This document shows positions 8,181 through 41,611 of a DNA stretch of 41,611 nucleotides, one piece after another. A program made the position numbers and the translations under genes. Within the stretch, counting starts at the first letter, position 1. Each line of letters starts with the position of its first letter. The notes beneath the pieces were generated by a model that did not search any database, was not told where the DNA came from, and saw nothing but the letters and a program-made list of their open reading frames with translations. The stretch is from an uncultured Balneolaceae bacterium (GTDB lineage Bacteria; Bacteroidota; Rhodothermia; Balneolales; Balneolaceae), in contig CALKOA010000015.1 of NCBI GenBank assembly GCA_938091655.1, forward strand, positions 1-41,611. The letters are read 5' to 3'.

Positions 8181-9785
8181 TTACATGCTGTTTGGATAAT
8201 AGACCGAAGCACTTCGATAGCTTTGAGCTAAGTTACTTTTTCCAGCATTTTCATAGGCTTGGGCAACATGCAGTAAAGCAATACGCAGTCGCTCTCTTTC
8301 AATTTCGCTGAATGAACCAGGGGTTGCTACTTTAGGAACGGATAAGGTAGTACCATCAGCAATATCATCAGGATTTTGACTGGTACTAAAGTTTTCTTCA
8401 AACAGTAGTACCCAGAGTCGTGGGTTGCCATAAATTTCTTGAGCCATGTTGTAGAGTCCGATTTCACTCCTGAAACGTACACTTTCAGAGGTAGAAGATC
8501 CTGATGAAGTGGAACTAGATGCTATAATATTACTCAAGTTTCTTGATGTGTTGACGTTTGACCTATTGGTACTTTGTGTAGCATCAGGAGTTAATTCAGT
8601 ACGATCAATAGTATTGGTTTGGATGGGTTGCTCTTGAGTATTACCAGTTAACTTAGTTTGAATTGATTGTTGACTTGAAGTATTCATACTATCAGTGGAC
8701 CCTCGTCCAAAGAATGTGTCCACTATGGACCCAATTAAAAATCCACTTATAAAGATCACAAAAATAGTTACTAAACTACTTGAGATAAATATTTTTTTAT
8801 CGATGCTAATTGTAGCATTGGATGTAGGTTTTATTCGTTCTGATTTTGAACTAATATTTTTTATGGCTGTTTTTAGTTCATCCATTGACTCTATAAAATC
8901 TTTAAGTAAATCCTCTTCGACAGGTATATATTTTTTCGGATTAATTGAGCTTTCAATATTGGGAAGGGTACTTTCTTTTGTAATTTGTGGAGGTGTAGGA
9001 TCAACAGCAGATGTACGCTCTACCGAGATGATATTATTTGGGAATACATTCTCTTTTTCTTCTTCCTGATTTGGTGCATTTTGTTCGGTAAAGTCTTCAT
9101 CATCAACCCGAATATCTAGGGAATTACTCATCATATGTTTCTTCTTTTGCAGAATTAATAATTCTAATTCATCCAATAAAGCGGTTTTTTCTGAGTTCTC
9201 TAATTGCACATCATTTGTTTCAAGATCATTTGCTGGTGTCGTGGAAAGCTTAGGTATTTTAAATTCAACTGTTTTAGCTTTTTCCTGAGATTTTATTCCG
9301 TCTATATCCTCAAAAAAAGAGTCATTATTTTTTTCCATTTCTTTATTTTTATTTTTAAGTATGTTTGATTCGTTTGAAATTGGAATTTGATTAAGCTCAT
9401 CAGATATTTGCAACTTGTCACTTGTACTTAAAAACGTAGCAGTATCTATACTATTTCTTGGTTTGTCATTTAAATTTTCATTTTTATTGGTAATATTATT
9501 GTTACTAACCAAATCGGCCAGCCTTTTATATGGAGTAAAGTATATTCGCTTGTGAGCTGGAATAATAATTCTTTCGCCTGTACCTGGCTGAGTTCCTTCT
9601 CGATCAGCTACCTCTGAAATGGTAAAACGCCCAAAACCTGTAATAGTTGCTTTTCCTTCACTAATAGCTACTTCGGTAACTGTTTCAGATAAAGCCTGAA
9701 TAAATAATTTAGCCTCGGTGGTACTAATTCCAGCTTTTAATGCGAATAAATCGATGAGCTCACTTGCATTTCTTTTAGTACTCAC
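8181..9785 (-). CDS. HU/IHF-like DNA-binding domain fused to a transmembrane segment and LysM-like domain
   Basis: 534 residues with three parts. Residues 1-95 are an HU/IHF fold: ATITGFGRF, the DNA-arm tip TQPGTGER and the RIYFTPYKRLADLV end. Residues about 96-325 are polar, low-complexity and Asn/Lys/Glu/Ser-rich, without a visible fold. Residues about 332-356 are one hydrophobic transmembrane helix. Residues about 357-435 are Ser/Thr/Gln-rich, and about 437-486 resemble LysM (LYNMAQEIYGNPRLWVLLFEEN ... NPDDIADGTTLSVP), followed by a short helical tail. The expected topology is DNA-binding end in the cytoplasm, LysM in the periplasm on peptidoglycan. The start is GTG at 9785, overlapping the upstream HU stop as GTGA. 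The linker is markedly A+T-rich. Domain calls are firm for HU and TM, good for LysM; a bridging role is inference. Confidence 0.85.
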   Translation of the reverse strand: MSTKRNASELIDLFALKAGISTTEAKLFIQALSETVTEVAISEGKATITGFGRFTISEVADREGTQPGTGERIIIPAHKRIYFTPYKRLADLVSNNNITNKNENLNDKPRNSIDTATFLSTSDKLQISDELNQIPISNESNILKNKNKEMEKNNDSFFEDIDGIKSQEKAKTVEFKIPKLSTTPANDLETNDVQLENSEKTALLDELELLILQKKKHMMSNSLDIRVDDEDFTEQNAPNQEEEKENVFPNNIISVERTSAVDPTPPQITKESTLPNIESSINPKKYIPVEEDLLKDFIESMDELKTAIKNISSKSERIKPTSNATISIDKKIFISSSLVTIFVIFISGFLIGSIVDTFFGRGSTDSMNTSSQQSIQTKLTGNTQEQPIQTNTIDRTELTPDATQSTNRSNVNTSRNLSNIIASSSTSSGSSTSESVRFRSEIGLYNMAQEIYGNPRLWVLLFEENFSTSQNPDDIADGTTLSVPKVATPGSFSEIERERLRIALLHVAQAYENAGKSNLAQSYRSASVYYPNSM

Positions 9786-37264: not shown

Positions 37265-37702
37265 ATGTCAAATGAAACCAAACCATCAGTTGAACTACGT
37301 ATACCCATACTTAAAGATATGGAATTAGTAGCAACCAATACAGCTGATGTGATAGCAAAATACATGCAATTGAGTGAAGAAGAATCGGGTGAAATATCAA
37401 TGGCATTGATTGAAGCAACAATCAACGCTTTTGAACATTCTGAGTCACAAAAAGATATCTTTATAAACTTCACAATTTCGGATGATGAACTAACAATAAA
37501 GGTTATAGATCAAGGTAAAGGGTTTGATAGTAAGGGCATACAAATACCAGATATTGACTCAAAATTAAAGAAACAAGAAAGAAAGAGAGGATGGGGTGTA
37601 ATGCTTATTAAGGAATTGATGGATTCAGTCGATTATGAATCAAGTAATGATGGAACCACACTGACAATGACTAAGAAAAAGAAAAATGAGCAAGATAATT
37701 AG
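37265..37702 (+). CDS. RsbW-like anti-sigma/serine kinase ATPase
   Basis: 145-residue GHKL ATPase domain of the SpoIIAB/RsbW type, which phosphorylates a STAS antagonist and sequesters another partner. ATP-site motifs: N-box EATINAFEH (E50, N54), G1 IDQGKGFD (D82, G84, G86) and G2 RGWGVMLIKELMD (G109, G111). In partner-switching modules it forms complexes with either the antagonist or the target. The 3' end overlaps the STAS gene by 17 bases, so the two are coupled. No sigma factor gene is present, so the target is likely something else; the neighbouring cyclase is the best candidate. The region is visibly A+T-rich. Confidence 0.9.
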   Translation: MSNETKPSVELRIPILKDMELVATNTADVIAKYMQLSEEESGEISMALIEATINAFEHSESQKDIFINFTISDDELTIKVIDQGKGFDSKGIQIPDIDSKLKKQERKRGWGVMLIKELMDSVDYESSNDGTTLTMTKKKKNEQDN

Positions 37703-38021
37703 TACCGAAGAACAAAATAAGTATGTAATAGTCAAAACTGAAGGCTATTTCAATAAAGATCTTGGTGAACTCGTGATATCAGTAGTAGAAGAAAAAGTTC
37801 AAGAAGATAAGTTCCATTTCATTTTAGATCTCGAGCAATCAAAAATTGTCAATAGTATTGGCGCTTCCATCCTTATTGAGGTTATCGAGATTCTTCAAGA
37901 TAAAGATGGAACTTTATCTTTATGCCATATGGCCCCCATAATTGAAAAAACATTTTCTATAATGGGTCTTACAAAGTATTGTAATATCTTTGCTACATTA
38001 GATGAAGCACTTGCGCAGTAA
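37686..38021 (+). CDS. STAS domain anti-sigma factor antagonist (RsbV/SpoIIAA-like)
   Basis: 111-residue single STAS domain. The phosphorylation loop is KIVNSIGASILIEV, with S57 in the position of the serine phosphorylated in SpoIIAA/RsbV (usually DSxGLG; here NSIGAS, so the serine is kept). The unphosphorylated form should bind the kinase at 37265 and release its partner; a SpoIIE-type phosphatase would reverse phosphorylation, and such an enzyme is encoded at 39950-41611. The ATG at 37686 lies inside the kinase gene; the cyclase follows after 24 bases. Confidence 0.9.
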   Translation: MSKIISTEEQNKYVIVKTEGYFNKDLGELVISVVEEKVQEDKFHFILDLEQSKIVNSIGASILIEVIEILQDKDGTLSLCHMAPIIEKTFSIMGLTKYCNIFATLDEALAQ

Positions 38022-38045
38022 TATTATTTAGGGTAGGGTTTACTT

Positions 38046-39953
38046 TTGGTATCAAAAATAATTTCAGATTATAAAAGCAAATACTCTGACTTAGATATTG
38101 ATTGTTCTTTTCACGAGCAAAAAGAATTACTTAAAAGTATCGGTGGGGCAAAATATCTACATGAGGGTAGACAAATACCTTATTATGAAGAGTCGCTAGC
38201 TTTTCTCAAAGATAAATTAGACTCAAATAAGTCTTTAGATACAGAAAATCTTTATTTCATTAATGAAAAAAACAATACGATCAATGTTCCTATCTTTTGT
38301 AATGATGAAATAATTGGTATTGTGTTGGGTCGAAAATCCAATATTAAACCAAATATTATCAATAGTCTCGGTATTCAGCTATCAAGCTTTATCACAAAAA
38401 AATTTTTCACGAAAAAAATAAAGAGTATTGAGTCAAGAGCTAATATTAAAGATTTAGAGTTCGAATCAATAGTCCAACTCACAAATATGCTGAGTTTTTG
38501 CGATAATTTATCTAACGAAACTTTAGAATACATACTGATACATTTAGTCTCGCTTTATGCAGCGTCAAAAGGTATGTTCATCCTTAGAGATACGAACACT
38601 AATATTTATGAAGTTCGGGCTACTTTTGAAATACGGGAAGAGGATATGCCTAGACGAATGTTGACAGATAATAAAGGTCTACTCGCTGAACTGAAAAATA
38701 CAAAGAAAACGTTTCTTGTAGAATCTGATAAATTTAATTTAGTCAAATTTGTTGAGCACAATTCAATTTGTAGCCCAATTTATTTCAGAGGTAACTTGCT
38801 TGGCTGTATAATTTTAGCTGATAAAGAAAGTAGAAAGGGGTTTATACACTTTTCAGATTTAGATGCCAATCTTTTTGATAGTCTGACTAAAGAGATTAGT
38901 TTAACAATCAATAATCTCAAGCTTATTGATGATCTTCAATCAACAAATAGTCTGATTGACAATATAATGACATCTATAGAAGCTGGAATCATAAAGTTTA
39001 CTGAATTTGGCGAAATTGAATACGTAAACAAGAAAGCAATTGAAATTATTGGAATAGAACGAGATCTAATTCAGAACCAACATTATGGAATAATTTTCGC
39101 CGATAATGGGTCATTTCTGGAAGTAATTAGTAATTACGAGTTAGCTGGAACTGACAATCAGGCACAAGTAGTCAAAAATGTACCTTTTAAAAGTATGAAT
39201 GGCACTATTCATACCTTGGATACTACAATAACACCTGTTTACGATAAAAACAAAGACAGATCTGGATATATATTGTCATTTGATGATATTTCAGATATGC
39301 AAAAAGTTAAGACGACTTTTAAAAAATATGTTTCTGGGAATATTGTAGATGAAATCTTGGATGATAATTCGAAAAGTGATTTAGGCGGTACCTTATCAGA
39401 TGCTTGTGTATTATTTGCTGATATTAGAGGTTTTACGGCTTTTTCAGAAAAAACATCAGCATCAGAATTAGTCTCAATATTAAATCAATATTTTACCGAA
39501 ATGATTGACATTGTATATGAATACAATGGCACCTTAGATAAAATTATTGGTGATGAATTAATGGTTTTGTTTGGCGTCCCAAATAATACTGAGCATGATT
39601 GTCAAAATGCTGTCGATTGTGCAATTACTATGTTTAAAAGACTCGACAAATTCAATGAAAAACTAGAAAAATCACACAATCATAAATTGAAGATAGGTGT
39701 AGGCATTCACTATGGTGAAGTAGTTGCTGGAAATATAGGATCAGATAAACAGATGAACTACACTGTTATAGGAGATAATGTTAATCAAGCAGCTAGATTC
39801 TGCTCAAATGCTAGTCCAAATGAGATTGTAATATCAGAGGATGTTTATAATAATATTTCAGATCAGAGTCTATTTAGTGAAAGTATTTTGATCAATGTAA
39901 AAGGTAAACATAATGCAATACCCGTCAGGAAATTTACTCATTCCTCGATTTAA
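38046..39953 (+). CDS. GAF-PAS class III adenylate cyclase
   Basis: 635-residue cytoplasmic signalling enzyme. A divergent N-terminal region (1-130) could hold a degenerate sensor; residues about 150-290 look like a GAF domain, about 303-415 a PAS domain (IMTSIEAGIIKFTEFGEIEYVNKKAIEIIG), then a short helix (TTFKKYVSGNIVDEIL) leads to a class III catalytic domain from about 448. Catalytic residues are all present: metal aspartates D459 (FADIRGFT) and D503, ATP-selecting K499 and D577, and transition-state N580 and R584 (IGDNVNQAARF). So it should make cAMP. The start is TTG at 38046; no ATG lies before the conserved part. It is 24 bases after the STAS gene, and shares a TTAA with the convergent phosphatase stop. 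Confidence 0.9.
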   Translation: MVSKIISDYKSKYSDLDIDCSFHEQKELLKSIGGAKYLHEGRQIPYYEESLAFLKDKLDSNKSLDTENLYFINEKNNTINVPIFCNDEIIGIVLGRKSNIKPNIINSLGIQLSSFITKKFFTKKIKSIESRANIKDLEFESIVQLTNMLSFCDNLSNETLEYILIHLVSLYAASKGMFILRDTNTNIYEVRATFEIREEDMPRRMLTDNKGLLAELKNTKKTFLVESDKFNLVKFVEHNSICSPIYFRGNLLGCIILADKESRKGFIHFSDLDANLFDSLTKEISLTINNLKLIDDLQSTNSLIDNIMTSIEAGIIKFTEFGEIEYVNKKAIEIIGIERDLIQNQHYGIIFADNGSFLEVISNYELAGTDNQAQVVKNVPFKSMNGTIHTLDTTITPVYDKNKDRSGYILSFDDISDMQKVKTTFKKYVSGNIVDEILDDNSKSDLGGTLSDACVLFADIRGFTAFSEKTSASELVSILNQYFTEMIDIVYEYNGTLDKIIGDELMVLFGVPNNTEHDCQNAVDCAITMFKRLDKFNEKLEKSHNHKLKIGVGIHYGEVVAGNIGSDKQMNYTVIGDNVNQAARFCSNASPNEIVISEDVYNNISDQSLFSESILINVKGKHNAIPVRKFTHSSI

Positions 39954-41611
39954 GCAACTTTCTTTATAACAACTAATGTTATATCATCTGGTAAGTCATC
40001 CAGATGAGAACGCCATTTTTTACCTAATGCTAATAGTGCATTTGAAATTTGTTTAGCACTTTTATCAATATTATAAAATATTTCATTATATATAGCTTCA
40101 TAGTCCAACAACTCATTTGATTCATTAGGTAATTCTGGTAAACCGTCTGACATCATTACTAGAATATCACCAACTTCAAAATTATGTTTTTTAGACTCAT
40201 ATTGGGTTCGACTTAATCCACCCAAAGGCAAGTTAGGAATTAACACCTCGTTTAGCTTGTTGTTCTTTGCACTGTATATAAAATAAGGTGGCATTGCAGC
40301 TGAACTTATTTCTATTGAATTCTCTTCAAGTTTAACTACTGATAAACTCATACGAATTCTACCAAAATTCACTTTTTTAACAATGGTATTTAATTTACTT
40401 AGCATGGTGGATGGAGAATTTAATTCAACACCATTTAAACCTGCCTTAGTAACGGAAACCATAATTCCTGAAGTTACCCCATGGCCTGTTGCATCACCAC
40501 ATATACTATAAAGTTTGTCTTCAAACTCAATGAAATCGAAATAATCACCACCCATTTCATTAGCAGATTGTAGATATGTGCTAATATCGAAAATATTTGT
40601 TGCTGGTGTTATTTTAGGTAGTAAGCTTTGTTGTAAATCTCTGGCTTCGTTTAATTCCTTTTCACGTCTTGCTTTTTCAAACTCATCTTTTGCTTTTTCA
40701 ACTCGCCTTTTCTGGATTAACCAATAAATACCGATTATAGCAATAAAATAAAGAAGTAATGCTTGGTAACTAAACCAAAAGGGAGGTTTGTTGGTTATAG
40801 CTATCTCTATTTCATTAAGAGATCGATTTCCATTTGCATCAACAAGGTATATACTTAATTCTGATCCATAATATGGAAGTGAGGAGATAACAATTTGGCT
40901 TCCATTAATGTTTGCATTATAAGGATCATCATTAATACTGTAATAGAATCTATTATTGTCTGATTTGTAGTGGTTACCAATATAAACGTCAAACAACAGT
41001 GATGTTATTTGATAGTCTATCTGTATTTTGTTATCAATAAATTGAATAGGATAAGGATTGTTGAATTTATCATAGCCTATAACTTTGAATAATTTTATTT
41101 CATTTGAAGCATCAATTTCATACAAATCTCCATAATTAAATTGATAAAGACCATCTGTTCCACTTAGTACAATATTTGTGCTATCAATTTGGTGAATAGA
41201 CTTTTTATTGAAAGATGTCATAAAAAGTCCGTCTTCTTCTGTTATTGAGCGGATTTTTCCATCCTTAATTAAATTTATACCTTGCCCACTTTGAACAAAT
41301 AGAATACCATTTTGATTGTAAATATCAGATATATTATTGGATAGTAACCCGTCTTCTTTTGTAATTCTACTAATAGTTTTTGATTCTAAATCAAATGTGT
41401 ATAACCCTCTTCCACTGGTTCCACCGTACATTGTGTTATTCTCTTTATCATAATAGAGATTGTCGATTCTATTTAATGTACTTAGAGCATTAGATCCATT
41501 ATCTGTGAAGTCAAAATTTAATGTATCGTCTAAATTTTCTATTTGGTGAATGGAAAGAGTTTTGATATCACTTGATATCCACAAACTGCTATCAACTCTT
41601 TCAATATCGGT
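39950..41611 (-). CDS. Beta-propeller sensor with SpoIIE-type PP2C phosphatase, 5' end cut
   Basis: 553 codons are visible and the frame is still open at the window edge, so the N-terminus is missing. The visible order is two-component-regulator propeller repeats (LWISSD, MYGGTSGRGLYTFD, ITKEDGLLSNNISDIY, IRSITEEDGL, VLSGTDGLYQF), a Y_Y_Y-like beta-sandwich (ISSLPYYGSELSIYLVDANGNRS), one transmembrane helix (about visible residues 279-301), a short charged coiled-coil, and a SpoIIE/PP2C phosphatase with metal-binding motifs EMGGDYFD, GDATGHGVTSG, MMSDGLPE and DDITLVVI. The propeller should sit in the periplasm and the phosphatase in the cytoplasm, where it would dephosphorylate the STAS protein at 37686. 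Convergent with the cyclase, overlapping four bases. Confidence 0.9.
   Translation of the reverse strand, partial: TDIERVDSSLWISSDIKTLSIHQIENLDDTLNFDFTDNGSNALSTLNRIDNLYYDKENNTMYGGTSGRGLYTFDLESKTISRITKEDGLLSNNISDIYNQNGILFVQSGQGINLIKDGKIRSITEEDGLFMTSFNKKSIHQIDSTNIVLSGTDGLYQFNYGDLYEIDASNEIKLFKVIGYDKFNNPYPIQFIDNKIQIDYQITSLLFDVYIGNHYKSDNNRFYYSINDDPYNANINGSQIVISSLPYYGSELSIYLVDANGNRSLNEIEIAITNKPPFWFSYQALLLYFIAIIGIYWLIQKRRVEKAKDEFEKARREKELNEARDLQQSLLPKITPATNIFDISTYLQSANEMGGDYFDFIEFEDKLYSICGDATGHGVTSGIMVSVTKAGLNGVELNSPSTMLSKLNTIVKKVNFGRIRMSLSVVKLEENSIEISSAAMPPYFIYSAKNNKLNEVLIPNLPLGGLSRTQYESKKHNFEVGDILVMMSDGLPELPNESNELLDYEAIYNEIFYNIDKSAKQISNALLALGKKWRSHLDDLPDDITLVVIKKVA

Follow-up and report, generated by a model that had tools for sequence, protein, structure and literature searches.

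Partner switches release sigma factors, and a few cases act on diguanylate cyclases. Among the latter, the SiaABCD system of Pseudomonas aeruginosa is the closest working analogue of the locus described here; unphosphorylated SiaC binds and activates SiaD, with the antagonist contacting the stalk of this diguanylate cyclase (PMC8457831). In HsbR-HsbA-HsbD, it is phosphorylated HsbA that binds HsbD (PMC6482189). Another means of control is provided by RsbT, which activates RsbU through the RsbU linker, and a modular exchange with GGDEF enzymes has been proposed for this kind of regulation (PMC12143880, where the term adenylate cyclase has 0 occurrences). Finally, Woyke et al. (2009) drew rsbW, rsbV, rsbU and a PAS gene, an adenylate cyclase according to the figure legend, in the marine flavobacterium MS024-2A and proposed sigma-24 control (PMC2668756).

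Four adjacent genes and their products

The window, i.e., the whole stretch of 41,611 nucleotides that was analysed, is one entire contig from an uncultured Balneolaceae bacterium and ends at position 41611. Its last four genes encode, in order, an RsbW/SpoIIAB-type kinase, a SpoIIAA/RsbV-type STAS protein, a class III cyclase and, convergently, a SpoIIE phosphatase. In a 534-aa ORF elsewhere in the window (8181-9785), a bacterial HU-type DNA-binding domain is confined to the first 93 residues, and Pfam matched nothing in the long remainder. The features of the locus are as follows.

37265..37702, plus strand: RsbW/SpoIIAB-type serine kinase (GHKL ATPase), 145 aa; HATPase_c_2 2.1e-23
37686..38021, plus strand: SpoIIAA/RsbV-type STAS antagonist, 111 aa; Pfam STAS 2e-10
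38046..39953, plus strand: class III (ATP-type) nucleotidyl cyclase, 635 aa, GAF-GAF-PAS-cyclase; Guanylate_cyc 1e-33, PAS, AlphaFold2 model
38046..38495, plus strand: N-terminal GAF-like domain of the cyclase with linker helix, residues 1-150; AlphaFold2 model, missed by Pfam
38514..38972, plus strand: GAF domain 2 with linker helix, residues 157-309; Pfam GAF 0.0014 (below cut-off), model
38985..39287, plus strand: PAS domain, residues 314-414; Pfam PAS_9 4e-7, model
39390..39938, plus strand: catalytic domain of the cyclase, residues 449-631; Pfam, residue conservation, model, Foldseek
39950..41611, minus strand: propeller-transmembrane-SpoIIE (PP2C) phosphatase, C-terminal 553 aa; Pfam SpoIIE 2.2e-23
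40712..40780, minus strand: probable transmembrane segment FWFSYQALLLYFIAIIGIYWLIQ of the phosphatase, read by eye from the sequence

An earlier sequence-only reading of this DNA had proposed the same four-gene set, with a 17-base overlap between kinase and STAS genes, a 24-base gap before a cyclase with every ATP-type catalytic residue, and a convergent propeller-transmembrane-SpoIIE phosphatase. All four ORFs were found where that reading had placed them, with the overlap and gap it gave, and Pfam and NCBIfam bore out the families. The stops of the cyclase and phosphatase genes overlap by 4 bases.

The best NCBIfam models for the kinase were RsbW (9e-17) and SpoIIAB, both under their curated cut-offs, and a profile search of the PDB returned RsbW (6m36) and SpoIIAB (1til/1l0o/1th8). 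As in the RsbW/SpoIIAB family, its GHKL ATPase fold combines a catalytic Glu/Asn pair, E50 (37412-37414) and N54 (37424-37426), with intact G boxes, and E50, N54, D82, G84 and G86 are kept in all readable relatives. This kinase is one of several in the genus, which also has a lone RsbW and a separate STAS-RsbW-GAF-SpoIIE operon. The latter, at L082 8880-11470 and also in L071 and L080, represents a second conserved partner-switch operon, apart from the cyclase module. The STAS protein gave a SpoIIAA profile match against the PDB (3e-10), and it pairs the STAS fold with a phosphorylatable Ser after Asn, as SpoIIAA/RsbV proteins do, with NSxG in place of DSxG. Its predicted phospho-acceptor, S57, lies at 37854-37856 in the motif VNSIG, and N56-S57-x-G59 is invariant in 93/93 relatives.

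The cyclase starts with TTG at 38046, an assignment that close relatives support, their own copy of this TTG being preceded by a GAGGAAAGG-like stretch. An AlphaFold2 model (pLDDT 80) contains, in order, a GAF-like domain, a helix (102-150), a GAF domain, a second helix (271-309), a PAS domain, short helices and the cyclase domain; with an overall pTM of 0.38, the arrangement of these domains in the model is not reliable. The order of predicted secondary structures suggests that the extra N-terminal domain is GAF-like, and the linkers are modelled as helices of 40-50 residues. GAF domain 2 carries a D/N-K-E-S-R-x-G...F...D motif (NKFDE-like), in which K-E and F occur in 66/66 module cyclases.

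In the catalytic domain, D459, D503, K499, T573, N580 and R584 are all present, as the sequence-only reading maintained, and the six are conserved in 66/66 module cyclases save for one masked residue at D459. We take D459/D503 to be the metal-binding residues, K499/T573 the substrate residues and N580/R584 the transition-state residues, and the Lys/Thr pair presumably points to ATP as the substrate. Two metal Asp, a Lys/Thr pair and an Asn/Arg pair are what characterizes class III ATP-type cyclases, and cAMP is the predicted product in vivo. By Foldseek, the catalytic domain resembles the adenylyl cyclase CyaC of S. platensis (TM-score 0.84-0.91); the guanylyl cyclase Cya2 of Synechocystis also matches. 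One module cyclase, at L166 7466-9559, has an HD phosphohydrolase domain after its cyclase domain (Pfam HD 1.7e-7), and judging from its domains, synthesis and breakdown could possibly be united in one protein. Similar 698-aa cyclases occur in L167, L168, L170, L173, L178 and L181 (Cytophagaceae/Spirosoma), with L166 being the one covered by the HD scan.

The phosphatase of the window is incomplete at the contig end (41611), and much of its sensor half is missing. The corresponding protein of an intact relative (L064 5754-8987) has 1,077 aa and a Reg_prop repeat, in keeping with the propeller proposed earlier. The PP2C motifs GGDY, GDATGHG, SDG and DDIT are present in the window, and metal-binding Asp motifs together with an N-terminal sensor place the protein among sensor SpoIIE/RsbU PP2C phosphatases.

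Conserved linkage and exchange of the third gene

Kinase and cyclase genes occur together in 6/9 of the genus genomes searched, and all four genes are in the same order in the five of five genus relatives whose neighbourhood was examined; the nearest named relatives are marine Balneola MAGs. A GAF-GAF-PAS cyclase in G091 was rejected as a module member, no kinase or STAS gene being recognised in its 7.5-kb contig. At the level of the phylum, a STAS profile separated 25 orthologues, scoring at least 91 bits, from other STAS proteins, scoring at most 46 bits.

A wider STAS scan of 84,980 species genomes produced 298 relatives, and the best 80 of these were analysed. They were ranked by similarity to the STAS protein of the window, and the fractions that follow describe near relatives, not the whole family. 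Among these best 80 of 298, the kinase lies beside the STAS gene in all 80, the cyclase is the next gene in 59 (it is found anywhere in the examined stretch in 63), and the four genes occur together in 52, with contig ends cutting some others. This is the conserved adjacency to be expected from the sequence-only reading, and the two findings that would speak against it, a consistent other partner gene or a lack of conserved linkage, were not encountered. By label, the 59 cyclase-next loci belong to Bacteroidota (39), Fidelibacterota (Marinimicrobia; 11), Balneolota (5) and Pseudomonadota (4), although most are MAGs or single cells whose individual taxon labels may be wrong. The Porticoccaceae or Methylococcales labels of some contigs with cyclase modules (L148, L161, L169 and L191) reflect either horizontal transfer or misassignment.

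In the 59 cyclase-next loci, the phosphatase gene precedes the others in tandem (28), follows them in convergent orientation (24) or lies outside the examined stretch (7). Of 62 loci in which the gap between STAS and cyclase genes was measured, 52 have one of 20 bp or less, and it is often just 0-1 bp. In G058, from another family of the order, the genes run SpoIIE-RsbW-STAS-cyclase; here the phosphatase carries a 7TMR-DISM sensor instead, and the flanking genes differ. Because the linkage is conserved in relatives, a chance neighbourhood of the four genes was rejected. As in SiaABCD-type systems, phosphatase, kinase, antagonist and cyclase are conserved as one gene set. The module is strongly conserved, and is probably a cAMP-output partner switch; conservation of gene order is a sign of shared function, not of direct contact.

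The third slot is not always occupied by a cyclase, a variation that the sequence-only reading had missed. Other Bacteroidota families provided 22 loci with a protein of this STAS family, with the kinase detected in 20/22 and the cyclase in 0/22; most of these loci have a SpoIIE protein of ~535 aa in this slot, with a large propeller-type SpoIIE after or before. More generally, the kinase-STAS pair of other Bacteroidota families and of Acidobacteriota is followed by a GAF-GAF protein that ends in SpoIIE. The cyclase may therefore be one of several clients of the pair. Moreover, two Sericytochromatia loci have GAF-GGDEF diguanylate cyclases near the pair (L212 7860-9500 and L218 5703-7262). Since slot 3 holds a cyclase, a GAF-GAF-SpoIIE protein or a GAF-GGDEF protein depending on the lineage, the output domain looks interchangeable.

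The N-terminal regions of the module cyclases and of the slot-3 phosphatases are homologous. A tandem-GAF profile made from the N-terminus of the 535-aa SpoIIE protein matched 53 module cyclases (best 2e-21) and only 6 other proteins of the same pool (best 2.5e-8), and this comparison with other GAF proteins disfavours generic GAF similarity as the source of the match. Only this direction is informative, because the cyclase profile also matches unrelated multi-GAF proteins. A slot-3 GAF-GAF-SpoIIE protein of Blastocatellia and a cyclase N-terminus of Marinimicrobia share 31% identity over 345 aa (E 3e-45).

In a kinase-STAS tree, the cyclase-type loci form a single, well-supported group from which G058 alone is missing, its pair being placed with the SpoIIE-type modules. 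On account of this placement, the cyclase was probably recruited more than once, although G058 has a long branch. A tree that holds all cyclase-type rows together, as a single origin would require, was rejected (p 1e-26), a result weakened by long branches and by the mixed locus L202. It is conceivable, with the evidence evenly poised, that these loci form a class of cAMP-output partner switches across Bacteroidota, Balneolota and Marinimicrobia, in which one kinase-STAS pair would drive a GAF-GAF chassis whose output is swapped between SpoIIE, diguanylate cyclase and adenylate cyclase.

A different arrangement occurs at L130 (1149-6147) and L135 (1581-6576), where a multi-GAF histidine kinase, a receiver-SpoIIE protein and a STAS protein of the studied family stand in a row. 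RsbW was not detected at these two loci (domains were scanned in L130), and from its gene content the arrangement is apparently a two-component version.

A proposed cAMP-output switch and its alternatives

The best explanation, which we hold with reasonable confidence, is a partner-switching module with an adenylate cyclase, not a sigma factor, as its output. The sequence-only reading had tied the switch to the cyclase in the same way, and that proposal gains from the complete kinase, STAS and phosphatase set, the ATP-type residues, the lack of a sigma gene nearby and a linkage that spans several phyla. Together these suggest a switch that would turn cAMP production on and off, and we infer control of the cyclase from them, including the contact with it, the polarity and the signal.

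In the proposed mechanism, the propeller-transmembrane-SpoIIE protein would act as an envelope sensor that meets an outside cue and strips the phosphate from S57 of the STAS protein, and the RsbW-type kinase would re-phosphorylate this residue. The phosphorylation state of the STAS protein would select the partner engaged with the tandem GAF domains and helical linkers of the cyclase, and through these the engaged partner would set the cAMP output of the cyclase dimer. By analogy with SiaC-SiaD, HsbA-HsbD and RsbT-RsbU, kinase and STAS protein should act on this GAF-linker region. The polarity is most likely SiaABCD-like, with unphosphorylated STAS, freed by the phosphatase, binding and activating the cyclase and the kinase serving as the off switch; this choice follows from the phosphatase being the envelope sensor of the loop.

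A weak point of the cAMP-output reading, not raised by the sequence-only reading, is the cAMP receptor: none of CRP type was found in the genus, and G006, a relative with a 98% complete genome, gave a single cNMP_binding match. The corresponding protein in the genome of the window (L220 1393-1938) is a stand-alone cNMP-binding protein of 181 aa without a recognised HTH, with a cassette that is non-canonical by eye. It is the sole above-cut-off cNMP_binding match in that genome, where a second match is partial, sub-threshold and at a contig end.

An unlikely variant, though the best of the alternatives, is RsbT-like: the kinase, once released by the STAS protein, would itself bind and activate the GAF-linker region of the cyclase, and the STAS protein would be a kinase sink only. 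The range of slot-3 outputs (SpoIIE, GGDEF and class III cyclase on GAF-GAF) does resemble that of RsbT targets (PMC12143880), but the kinase best matches RsbW and SpoIIAB, the STAS protein matches SpoIIAA/RsbV models, and no RsbR/RsbS-type scaffold was noticed in an incidental reading of the annotated genes of the loci examined.

The sigma model, published for apparently the same operon in MS024-2A (PMC2668756), is quite improbable here. Under this model, the kinase would be a true anti-sigma factor whose target, an ECF (sigma-24) factor, is encoded elsewhere, and the cyclase would serve as an accessory sensor, acting on the phosphatase or on a parallel output. The host genome does encode ECF sigma factors elsewhere, which favours this model, and these may be targets too. 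However, the 1,200 ORFs from 109 loci yielded no sigma gene in phmmer searches with host RpoD-like and ECF-like queries, for which the positive control worked, whereas the cyclase stays in the module when the genes are rearranged; this argues against sigma binding by the kinase, a sigma gene nearby in relatives is rejected, and the lack of one in the sequence-only reading extends well beyond the window. In addition, a SigB/SigF system would have a SigB/F/G member, and none scores over cut-off in the host genome (90% complete), where the best match, far below cut-off, is probably the primary sigma factor. The passages of PMC2668756 considered here hold no experiment on the model.

Lastly, it is very improbable that the cyclase shares regulation with the switch genes and feeds into the loop, with cAMP acting on the switch via the NKFDE-like GAF, for example, and STAS protein and kinase never acting on the cyclase: its tandem-GAF architecture resembles that of the cAMP-activated CyaB2 of Anabaena (PMC4411481) and the NKFDE-like motif is conserved in GAF2, but the kinase-STAS pair is also accompanied by SpoIIE outputs with related GAF-GAF regions, and this fits a chassis for docking or regulation better than a cAMP-only sensor.

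If the preferred reading of an adenylate cyclase as the output is true, the module would be a candidate cAMP input in marine Bacteroidota-type bacteria, and it would provide a function for RsbW/RsbV genes usually annotated there as anti-sigma factors. Moreover, the SpoIIE, GGDEF and cyclase versions would constitute natural domain-swap sets in which one switch drives different enzymes. The carriers are many uncultured, mostly marine bacteria; some may be cultivable, as certain loci are labelled Spirosoma fluviale, though these are MAGs.

Comparison with described systems

In CyaB1 and CyaB2 of Anabaena, a PAS domain lies between the tandem GAF domains and the cyclase, and we know of no partner-switch genes with these enzymes. 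Like the window cyclase, they place tandem GAF domains ahead of a class III cyclase (PMC4411481), a likeness missed by the sequence-only reading, but they are regulated by cAMP binding to GAF.

The rsb operon of MS024-2A, matched by its description in a figure legend, is apparently the same operon as that of the window. It differs in being drawn from a single genome in a supplementary figure, with a sigma-24 reading and, in the parts of the paper concerned, no comparative test (PMC2668756). The sequence-only reading knew of no described case with an adenylate cyclase in this lineage; no description of an adenylate cyclase as a partner-switch target was found in the open-access literature searched, but what is apparently the same operon was already drawn in 2009.

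RsbT-RsbU and the RsbT-GGDEF system of Moorella are similar in that an RsbW-family kinase acts on the N-terminal or linker region of a modular enzyme with interchangeable outputs (PMC12143880); unlike the window module, they are tied to an RsbR/RsbS scaffold. In HsbR-HsbA-HsbD and in BgrSTUWV-BgrR of Sinorhizobium, a STAS partner-switch protein controls a nucleotide cyclase (PMC6482189; PMC8457831). The former was the precedent named by the sequence-only reading and holds as such, although the closer SiaABCD was overlooked. Both systems differ from the window in having diguanylate cyclases, and since HsbA also binds FlgM and HsbR also binds RpoS, sigma control remains.

Finally, SiaABCD, too, is without a sigma factor and combines a sensor PP2C phosphatase with a kinase, an antagonist of STAS fold and, as the output (a proposed one in the window), a nucleotide cyclase. 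The window module is distinct from SiaABCD proper, its output matching Guanylate_cyc and its antagonist STAS. SiaD, with its helical stalk, is a diguanylate cyclase of the GGDEF type and SiaC a DUF1987 protein phosphorylated on Thr68; the module of the window instead has a class III ATP-type cyclase, an RsbW-type kinase and a true STAS protein, in which the residue concerned is Ser.
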